Below are positions 60,887 through 63,035 of a DNA stretch of 63,209 nucleotides, one piece after another. The first letter of the stretch is position 1, and the number at the start of each line of letters is the position of its first letter. The DNA comes from Rathayibacter tritici (GTDB taxonomy: Bacteria; Actinomycetota; Actinomycetes; Actinomycetales; Microbacteriaceae). The DNA lies in the NCBI RefSeq assembly GCF_002932875.1, contig NZ_PSWS01000051.1, positions 1 through 63,209 on the forward strand, in the 5' to 3' direction. The position numbers and the translations under genes are program-made. The notes beneath the pieces were generated by a model. That model saw nothing but the letters and a program-made list of their open reading frames with translations. It ran no database searches and was not told the DNA's origin.

Positions 60887-61045
60887 ATGAACGACGCGGG
60901 CATTCTTGCAATCGAGCTCGACCTCGACAACATCGAGGTGATCGATGTGGCCAAGGGCTTGGATGACCGTGCACTCGGGATTTCTGCCTCCGACACGTGG
61001 CTTTGCACGTCCTCGTCCTCCTCCACGTGCAGCTCCACCTGCTAG
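60887..61045 (+). CDS. Thiopeptide-like RiPP precursor peptide
   Basis: The 52-residue peptide starts at ATG 60887, preceded by GAAAGAAG. The leader is acidic and hydrophobic (ELDLDNIEVIDVAKGLDD), as in thiazolylpeptide precursors. After ALGISA the tail is SDTWLCTSSSSSTCSSTC. This 18-residue core has 8 Ser, 4 Thr and 3 Cys and begins with Ser, the residue that joins the pyridine ring in thiopeptides. Three Cys could give thiazoles and the Ser/Thr could be dehydrated. The next gene is a thiopeptide-type enzyme, which supports the call. The unbroken five-Ser run is unusual. The cut site and final product are inferred. Confidence 0.75.
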   Translation: MNDAGILAIELDLDNIEVIDVAKGLDDRALGISASDTWLCTSSSSSTCSSTC

Positions 61046-61069
61046 AGAACGCCTCGACTGACTCATTCG

Positions 61070-61099
61070 CGGCCTGCGATCGAAGCAGTAGTCGCAGGC
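61070..61099 (+). terminator. Hairpin between precursor and enzyme gene
   Basis: GGCCTGCGA (61070-61078) and TCGCAGGCC (61091-61099) form a 9-bp stem with a 12-nt loop, 24 bases after the precursor stop. It lacks a T-run, so partial termination or transcript protection is more likely than a full stop. Confidence 0.55.
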
Positions 61100-61263
61100 C
61101 CCTCCCGCTCTGGCCGCCCGGATAACGAGGGGTCTGCGACTGCCGGCCAGCGGCGGGGCCGCGGAGTGGCTACCCATGCATGAGGTCGAAGTAAGGGTGA
61201 CAACAGGAACCCGTCAGGCTCGAGACGAGGATCACGATCATAAGTAAAACCGACAAATCGTAC

Positions 61264-62136
61264 GTGGCCCTGAATCTTGAGCTACGGATTCCGAACTTCG
61301 ATCCACGCATTGGTGATGAGGTCCTCACCCGTGTTGCTCATGATGTCGGCGATCGACCGTGGTGGTTCCTCCGATACTGGCAATCGGGGCCACACATCCG
61401 CTTCAGGGCGTTGCGTCGCGAAGACGCGGAGATCATCGAGCGCTCGGTGACGACCAGCTTCACGAAGTGTGCGACATCTTCCTGGAAAGACATCGCAGTA
61501 CTGACAGATCGGGAATACCGGGACGCCACGTCGGGCGTTGCACGACAGGGCGAAGGGGATGGTGAAATGGAGTGTCTGCCACTGGCGCCTCTAGGAGTGC
61601 ATGCGCGTCCGTTCAAGAGCGAAGAGTCCCGATATGGGGGAGTGCAACGTTATCGCGCAGCCATTAGGGCCTTCAGCGCCTCTTCCGTCAGCGTGGGCCT
61701 CACGCTGGACTCCCATCGGGACATGGACGCGCGCACGAGATATCTCCTCGGCGCGTCGGCAATAGCCAACTTTTATGGGCGCGTTGCGGAGCTAGCGAAT
61801 CCCTGTGGAACCGCGGATGGTTACGAAGGAAAGCGGCTGTCCATTTCTACACTGCGCAGTGCCCCGTTTGCTCCCGCGCCTGTCGTGACGATGATGAATC
61901 GCATCATCGCGAACCCTCGTCCAGATACTTTCGATCACGTGGACCCGCGTCTCCTAGGCCCAACGGTCAAGGACGTGCTGACAACCGAGAACGTGCCGAT
62001 ACGCGGAGCGTACCTCGGCTCGATCATTCACACCACATGCAACAGGCTGGGGCTCGCCGTAGAAGCGGAGAGGTCATTGCGCTGGACGGCTCTTGATCTC
62101 GTGGAGGAACAACGTCGAGCTTCGCGCCGAGATTAG
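61264..62136 (+). CDS. Stand-alone thiopeptide-type bacteriocin biosynthesis (SpaB_C-like) enzyme
   Basis: The 290-residue frame matches the thiopeptide-type/lantibiotic dehydratase C-terminal domain. The signature DRPWWFLRYWQSGPHIRFRA lies near residue 31. In this group the domain eliminates glutamate from glutamyl-Ser/Thr to form dehydroamino acids, or catalyses the [4+2] pyridine formation; which applies here is unknown. GTG 61264 has no ribosome binding site. In frame upstream, ATA 61240 is followed by SKTDKSY and sits 8 bases after GAGGA (61227-61231), so the original start was probably ATG at 61240, now mutated. Several basic and aromatic residues typical of the N-terminal half remain. 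Confidence 0.78.
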   Translation: MALNLELRIPNFDPRIGDEVLTRVAHDVGDRPWWFLRYWQSGPHIRFRALRREDAEIIERSVTTSFTKCATSSWKDIAVLTDREYRDATSGVARQGEGDGEMECLPLAPLGVHARPFKSEESRYGGVQRYRAAIRAFSASSVSVGLTLDSHRDMDARTRYLLGASAIANFYGRVAELANPCGTADGYEGKRLSISTLRSAPFAPAPVVTMMNRIIANPRPDTFDHVDPRLLGPTVKDVLTTENVPIRGAYLGSIIHTTCNRLGLAVEAERSLRWTALDLVEEQRRASRRD

Positions 62137-62172
62137 GTTAAGTGATCCGGCCCCGATCCCGCGGAGAAGGAC

Positions 62173-62862
62173 ATGAAAAGTACGAGTCAGGAGCCGTATA
62201 TGCATGACAGATCGCGCTTGAGTACTCCCAAGTCGAAGATCGTGATGGGTGCTGTAAACGTCGCGGTCCCGGTCGCGCTCTATTATTTGGCCCGCGCTCT
62301 CGGCGCGAGTCAGGTGGTGGGGCTGATGACGGGAGTCGGCTGGTCTCTCGTCTCCACGGTGTACGTATTCGCGATAACCAGGCGGATCAGTGCAAGTTCC
62401 GGGGCCGTCGGTTTCCTCCTCCTGCTCAGTGTCATCACCGCGTTGGTCACGCGGGCGGCCTCGTCGGTCCTCGTCGCCTCCGGCATCGTTCCCGCTGGCA
62501 TAGGTCTGCTCATGATTGTGTCCGCCTTCGTCGGACGCCCCGTGATCCAGAGCCTGATCGCTCCGGCTATGGATGCCGCTGCGAAGAATGAACGAGTCAC
62601 TGCCACGTGGATGTGGAACAACGAACCGACTTACCGGCGCGCCATGATCGTGTCCACGGCGCTGTGGGGATTTTTAGTCCTCGCCGAGGCGGTCGCAGGC
62701 ATAGTCTTGGCTGTGAGTCTGCCGGTCGATGAAGTGGTGGCCATCCGGCCAGTGGTCGCTATTCTGATCGTCGGCGTAGCTGGTCTCTGCCAGTACCTGT
62801 ACATAGGCCATCTGAAAAAGTCTGTGCCCGAAGAACTACGTGAAGGTAGGAACACCCAGTGA
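62173..62862 (+). CDS. Polytopic membrane protein of the RiPP locus (VC0807-like)
   Basis: The 229-residue protein has about six transmembrane helices, beginning at NVAVPVALYYLARAL. The segment LGASQVVGLMTGVG and the later WMWNNEPTYRRAMIVST resemble the VC0807/DUF3159-type family. ATG 62173 follows GGAGAAGG. It is 36 bp after the thiopeptide-type enzyme and overlaps the next gene by four bases. A role in export or self-protection is a guess from position. Confidence 0.65.
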   Translation: MKSTSQEPYMHDRSRLSTPKSKIVMGAVNVAVPVALYYLARALGASQVVGLMTGVGWSLVSTVYVFAITRRISASSGAVGFLLLLSVITALVTRAASSVLVASGIVPAGIGLLMIVSAFVGRPVIQSLIAPAMDAAAKNERVTATWMWNNEPTYRRAMIVSTALWGFLVLAEAVAGIVLAVSLPVDEVVAIRPVVAILIVGVAGLCQYLYIGHLKKSVPEELREGRNTQ

Positions 62863-63035
62863 ACCATCCGCAGCTCGTGAAGGACGTACAGCACAAGGTG
62901 ATGAAATTCGGGGTCTCTTTCCTGCCGGATGTCAATCCTGGTCTACGGTCACCGGTGCAGTACTACCGCGACCTCATTCGACTCAGTTTGCAGGCGGAAA
63001 TGCTCGGATTTGAGAGCGTTATTCATAAGGTCTGA
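62859..63035 (+). pseudogene. Luciferase-like (LLM) flavin oxidoreductase cut off by an insertion sequence
   Basis: The GTG at 62859 overlaps the previous stop. The frame reads MKFGVSFLPDVNPGLRSPVQ, then YYRDLIRLSLQAEMLGFESV. That is the typical first strand and helix of LLM-class FMN/F420-dependent oxidoreductases. It then ends after IHKV at TGA 63033. Normal proteins have ~330 residues, so about 80 percent is missing. An insertion-sequence end follows directly. In a RiPP cluster such an enzyme could oxidise or reduce the peptide; here it is disrupted, unless the window's right flank restores it. Confidence 0.72.

Follow-up and report, generated by a model that had tools for sequence, protein, structure and literature searches.

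The systems closest to the locus described here are the thiomuracin-type pathways, which employ TbtB, TbtC, and TbtD, and the pathways that lead to berninamycin and geninthiocin B. Glutamate elimination in the thiomuracin pathway is assigned to TbtC (PMC10676384). The geninthiocin B core is described as 10 Ser among 15 residues, and the YcaO and dehydrogenase genes of the berninamycin and geninthiocin B clusters as split (PMC6306032). In Rathayibacter itself, a thiopeptide cluster is reported as unique to population RT-V of R. toxicus (PMC7143919).

The window, the whole stretch of 63,209 nucleotides of DNA that was analyzed, belongs to Rathayibacter, as the exonuclease encoded beside ychF is 89–95% identical to those in seven Rathayibacter genomes. 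Near its right end, at 60887–63012, a single strand carries genes for a precursor peptide, a stand-alone Lant_dehydr_C protein, and a VC0807-family protein, followed by the head of a luciferase-like gene. The native sequence extends up to 63012, and the end of an insertion sequence (IS) starts at 63013. The features of the locus and its upstream flank are:

60312–60520, minus strand: 5′ remnant of another transposase-like gene, upstream of the precursor
60887–61045, plus strand: thiopeptide-type precursor gene, 52 residues, with the leader at about 60887–60988 and the core at about 60989–61042 (SDTWLCTSSSSSTCSSTC)
61264–62136, plus strand: stand-alone LanB elimination-domain (TbtC-like) protein, 290 residues
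62173–62862, plus strand: VC0807-family integral membrane protein, 229 residues, putative immunity protein
62859–63012, plus strand: luciferase-like oxidoreductase gene, 5′ fragment truncated by an IS
63013–63209, plus strand: left end of a DDE insertion sequence of about 0.9 kb, with the transposase start at 63120; the window ends inside this element

Similar to the thiomuracin type, the locus contains a stand-alone elimination domain in the role of TbtC, and the ancestral pathway proposed below is modeled on complete relatives. It differs from the thiomuracin type in that TbtB, TbtD, and the azole-forming genes were not seen at the locus; likewise, no LanB glutamylation protein, YcaO, or TbtD-like gene was seen in the sequence up to the point where the window stops inside the IS. 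The Ser-dominated core is reminiscent of berninamycin and geninthiocin B, but the YcaO and dehydrogenase genes of the relatives of this locus are each one roughly full-length piece, unlike the split genes of those clusters. A further point of comparison is provided by Ser-run thiazolylpeptide precursors (families NF033400 and TIGR03892) in three actinobacterial genomes, designated G1008, G491, and G676. As in the window, these combine an acidic leader, an 18–20-residue core with a run of Ser, and an elimination protein encoded nearby. The clusters of G1008, G491, and G676 are complete, whereas the window precursor passes TIGR03892 only and has a leader that is weakly alike, and it directly precedes the elimination gene, an arrangement unlike that of the three clusters. 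In searches of open-access literature, mostly covered as listings, no description of the window locus was found.

Setting and composition of the locus

The G+C content of the locus is 59.5%, compared with 69.4% for the window, and GC3 is 0.64 for the enzyme gene and 0.91 for ychF. These low values fit acquisition from outside, and a thiopeptide-type cluster was probably acquired horizontally by a Rathayibacter. When 15 Rathayibacter genomes were searched at the DNA level, R. tanaceti alone gave the locus; the matches in three other genomes are confined to short stretches of IS- or transposase-like sequence or to a piece of 36 bp. In a tree built from ychF, exonuclease, and glpX, the window and R. 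tanaceti split with 97% support from six other Rathayibacter and one further Microbacteriaceae, the latter being the intended outgroup, which is poorly placed.

Several other features surround the locus. At window 58712–59664, the 3′ end of ychF is present twice, with a DUF3800 gene (58756–59262) between the two copies, an arrangement reminiscent of an element that restored the end of ychF upon integration. Upstream of the precursor, a decayed GNAT-type acetyltransferase gene, named by eye, is present at 59774–60195, and an intact relative of this gene is found downstream of the R. tanaceti locus. The transposase-like remnant at 60312–60520 gives a 69% DNA match to G005:C1:612176-612384, which falls within a short ORF (L100) that resembles the start of a transposase by eye, not by family search. 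The IS end at the right of the locus is 92% identical over 197 bp to a copy (L084) in G004, another genome of the genus, and 79% identical to copies in G005, and the transposase of the L101 IS copy matches PF13359 with 78.1 bits; a search of the IS end against plasmids gave no match. The luciferase-like head interrupted by this element matches PF00296 weakly, with 17.6 bits, which is under the cut-off of 27.9.

The precursor peptide

The initial annotation had described a peptide of 52 residues, and both its coordinates and its composition were confirmed: the frame runs from an ATG at 60887 to a stop that ends at 61045, and the last 18 residues begin with Ser and comprise 8 Ser, 4 Thr, and 3 Cys, including a run of five Ser. 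The peptide passes the thiopeptide-type precursor model TIGR03892 (thiopep_precurs) with 27.6 bits against a cut-off of 25. It does not pass NF033400 (cut-off 30 bits), to which it gives no match at E ≤ 1. With the true core retained, none of five leader shuffles reaches the TIGR03892 cut-off, the best scoring 18.9 bits, and one of two core shuffles tested, from five made, remains above it at 29.2 bits, which indicates that the match depends on the leader and on which residues the core contains, but not on their order. The window and 80 loci, together 1.54 Mb, contain 19,241 segments of 40 or more residues between stops; of these, only one combines such a Ser/Thr/Cys tail with an acidic leader, and that one is the window precursor, by criteria chosen after the precursor had been seen. 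On the TIGR03892 match, the shuffles, and the single occurrence of the tail, a chance ORF was rejected. When the window leader was compared with those of the three complete clusters, its score was equaled by 4 of 2000 shuffles; this likeness is weak, and the main grounds for kinship are therefore the enzyme, the core, and the match to the general precursor model. A precursor search of 398 Microbacteriaceae genomes yielded five at E ≤ 0.01, with R. tanaceti alone strong and the others at 0.003–0.009, and a search of plasmids yielded one match, at chance level.

Thiopeptide cores usually have Cys or Ser at position 2; unlike these, the window core has Asp. The five-Ser run had at first been taken as unusual, a view that was not supported: the core is ordinary for its kind, as the precursors of G1008, G491, and G676 contain runs of 6, 9, and 8 Ser, and on these relatives, along with the geninthiocin B core (PMC6306032), a new type of core was rejected.

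Two other loci with precursors were observed. In L098, from another Microbacteriaceae (G229), two near-identical precursors with a seven-Ser run are located about 4.3 kb apart and adjoin ABC-transporter-, YcaO-like, and SpaB_C-like genes, all assigned by eye. In L173 (G1067), a thiomuracin-like precursor (...GASTNCFCYPCCSCSAPSSSA) is located near YcaO and TbtD-like matches.

The elimination enzyme

The protein encoded at 61264–62136 matches PF14028 with 59.7 bits (cut-off 24.4), as expected of a split LanB elimination protein, and scores 39.7 bits against TIGR03891, under the cut-off of 48.45; the equivalent proteins in L131 and L129, loci of two complete clusters described below, pass TIGR03891. 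Three motifs, HxRxR, ExxRYGG, and HxxxNRLG, are present in the window enzyme and, in an alignment, are common to four full-length homologues from complete clusters. When a profile of five enzymes was compared with solved structures, the lantibiotic dehydratase 5ehk, which we take to be MibB, and NisB ranked first, and TbtD appeared later (E 1e-4). In relatives, the TbtD-like signal is found on a separate protein, with 102.5 bits in L130 and 119.7 bits in L131, both below the NF045556 cut-off of 325. From the motifs, the ranking of the solved structures, the TIGR03891 passes, and the separate TbtD-like proteins, the window enzyme is identified as the glutamate-elimination half of a split LanB, like TbtC. 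The enzyme had been proposed to make either dehydroamino acids or the pyridine ring; motifs and profile matches bear out the elimination-type assignment and not that of a pyridine-ring enzyme. A role as pyridine synthase was rejected on an NF045556 score of 12 bits, compared with the cut-off of 325, and on the separate TbtD-like proteins of L130 and L131.

The enzyme frame first offers a start codon at 61264, a GTG that no Shine–Dalgarno-like stretch precedes. As read from the sequence, AGGA stands 8 nt before an in-frame ATA at 61240; this codon may once have been the original start, which would then have been lost.

Complete clusters in other actinobacteria

Searches with the enzyme found relatives in 21 of 394 genomes of the class at E ≤ 1e-3 and in 5 of 396 genomes of the order at E ≤ 1e-4, R. 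tanaceti being among them in each case. A direct search of genome contigs found none, and neither did a search of plasmids; the G1008 enzyme, used in the same way on plasmids, found one Streptomyces plasmid. Complete relatives of the cluster are present in five other actinobacterial genomes: G431 (L129), G545 (L130), G491 (L131), G676 (L132), and G1008 (L171). Each contains homologues of six genes, which encode TbtD-like, LanB-like, E1-like, YcaO, SagB-like (dehydrogenase-like), and elimination proteins. Curated models back YcaO in G491 and G1008, nitroreductase in G1008, and Lant_dehydr_N in the G491 cluster, with G1008 below the cut-off for the last; the term E1-like denotes position and similarity, as two such proteins were scanned and gave no family match. 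A sixth relative, G721 (L133), was excluded from the five; it has five of the six enzyme genes, and its contig ends before the position of the TbtD-like gene.

The precursors of G1008, G491, and G676 all pass TIGR03892, and with NF033400 (cut-off 30), G1008 (51.9 bits) and G676 (34.5 bits) pass and G491 (28.5 bits) fails. Composition scans of the G431 and G545 stretches found no precursor. Homologous precursors near homologous enzymes, which the initial annotation had named as a check, are present in R. tanaceti, G1008, G491, and G676.

The Ser-run clusters in L131, L132, and L171 adjoin a gene for 3-dehydroquinate synthase II (PF01959 in L131 and L171; by eye in L132), and ligase-like and FAD-monooxygenase-like genes, also by eye, are adjacent in L131 and L132. 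Judging from these neighbors, the peptide may be linked to an aromatic building block. For chemical work, the complete Ser-run clusters are more promising than the window locus.

The counterpart in R. tanaceti

The locus is also found after ychF in R. tanaceti VKM Ac-2596 (L004), where the precursor gene has lost 6 nt and is interrupted by a TGA in place of the first core Cys codon. The enzyme gene of this strain lacks its 5′ part, two of its stretches are out of frame, and Gln replaces the Arg of ExxRYGG; though damaged, the frame is open as a whole. The luciferase-like gene is cut by an IS that is different from, but related to, that of the window. YcaO and dehydratase genes had been expected near a working cluster. 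The R. tanaceti draft genome contains no YcaO or Lant_dehydr_N match and no match to the LanB-like and TbtD-like proteins of G1008, both of which are matched in three of three control genomes. These absences count against a working cluster, and the R. tanaceti locus cannot work. Because this draft was sequenced by Ion Torrent (PMC4911470), its small indels may be errors, an explanation that fits the stop, the Arg-to-Gln substitution, and the larger deletions less easily.

The two insertion sequences, at 63013 in the window and at L004 6191–6214 in R. tanaceti, are about 70% identical and are observed about 37 bp apart in the same luciferase-like gene. As the elements differ and do not sit at the same position, the decay need not share one history in both strains.

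The membrane protein and selection on its gene

The protein encoded at 62173–62862 matches NF041646 with 112.7 bits (cut-off 65), contains five TM-like stretches, and is 92% identical over 219 residues between the window and R. tanaceti. In this comparison, omega is 0.21 (0.12–0.35) for the membrane gene, 0.72 (0.47–1.12) for the enzyme, which is near neutral, 0.48 (0.15–1.73) for the precursor, a range that includes neutrality, 0.48 (0.17–1.37) for the luciferase-like fragment, and 0.04 (0.01–0.08) for ychF. With rounded substitution counts, selection on the membrane gene differs from that on the enzyme (Fisher p = 0.0005), and the membrane gene is less constrained than ychF (p = 0.002). Among the genes of the locus, only the membrane gene is under clear purifying selection in the comparison with R. 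tanaceti. Since the R. tanaceti locus cannot work and its membrane gene is still under purifying selection, the gene is probably beneficial by itself, and the membrane protein, on the simplest reading, remains useful while the surrounding cluster dies.

The most straightforward candidate for that benefit is immunity or resistance left over from the dead cluster. As a specific proposal, that this VC0807 protein is a thiopeptide self-immunity or resistance protein kept by selection after the producing cluster died, we regard it as doubtful. Around distant VC0807 homologues (about 25–33% identical), thiopeptide-type enzyme genes were found at none of the 20 loci examined, which were taken from 34 listed places other than R. 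tanaceti and of which four stretches were shortened by contig ends or by 9–13-kb cut-outs; a general immunity role is therefore not favored. Four annotated plasmid neighborhoods appear by eye to be biosynthetic in two cases and not in the other two. A search of the open-access literature for "VC0807 family" found no paper.

Discussion

We favor, with moderate confidence, the reading that the window locus is the left part of a thiopeptide-type cluster that was truncated by an IS and most likely no longer produces, with the membrane gene retained. The initial annotation had described a thiopeptide-type locus, cut by an IS and perhaps a decayed remnant, and the family matches, the IS end at 63013, and the R. 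tanaceti lesions back that description. Counting against a remnant are the window precursor, enzyme, and membrane ORFs, all of which are open, the R. tanaceti enzyme frame, which is damaged but open as well, and the fact that the window ends inside the IS. The ancestor would have operated in the manner of other thiopeptide clusters. In it, a YcaO protein, its E1-like partner, and a dehydrogenase would have converted the core cysteines (C6, C14, and C18) to thiazoles. A LanB glutamylation protein would have loaded Ser and Thr, and the protein encoded at 61264–62136 would have eliminated glutamate to give dehydroalanines. A TbtD-like enzyme would then have joined Ser1 and a Ser of the run into the pyridine that closes the macrocycle. 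The luciferase-like gene may have encoded a tailoring oxidoreductase, and the membrane gene could have been retained as an immunity or resistance gene after the death of the cluster.

It is unlikely that the cluster still works, with the IS only in a dispensable tailoring gene, the other enzymes intact beyond it, and a thiopeptide made from the window precursor. The open precursor, enzyme, and membrane ORFs, the retained catalytic motifs, and the window's end inside the IS, by which absence of genes beyond it is not established, are all compatible with a working cluster, but R. tanaceti, a close relative with the same site, shows none of the other cluster genes in its draft genome, the enzyme is without a well-placed start codon, and its omega is near neutral.

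Elimination domains and luciferase-like oxidoreductases occur in lanthipeptide clusters too, and the two terms co-occur in the literature. The pairing of these genes, together with lantibiotic dehydratases as the best solved matches of the enzyme profile, could thus point away from a thiopeptide and to a class I lanthipeptide cluster in which LanB is split and the luciferase-like protein reduces dehydroalanine. We consider this origin improbable, as the precursor passes a thiopeptide-precursor model, and the clusters of the five enzyme relatives include YcaO and TbtD-like genes and, in three cases, Ser-run precursors. It is very improbable that the precursor frame arose by accident or died long ago and that the membrane gene alone matters, as an ordinary host gene: the stop in the R. 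tanaceti precursor and an omega range that includes neutrality would fit it, but the TIGR03892 match above the cut-off, the rarity of the tail among the segments scanned, and the similar precursors in complete clusters argue against it.

As a thiopeptide locus, the favored truncated cluster is ordinary and probably dead, and its interest lies in the contrast in selection within one small group of genes. Thiopeptide resistance known for the class is ribosome- and EF-Tu-based. If the membrane gene does encode immunity, it would represent a membrane-based form distinct from these, would show directly that immunity can persist after production has ended, and would offer a candidate for thiopeptide self-resistance that can be tested; the locus would then be a fossil of a transition from producer to cheater, caught in two related strains.
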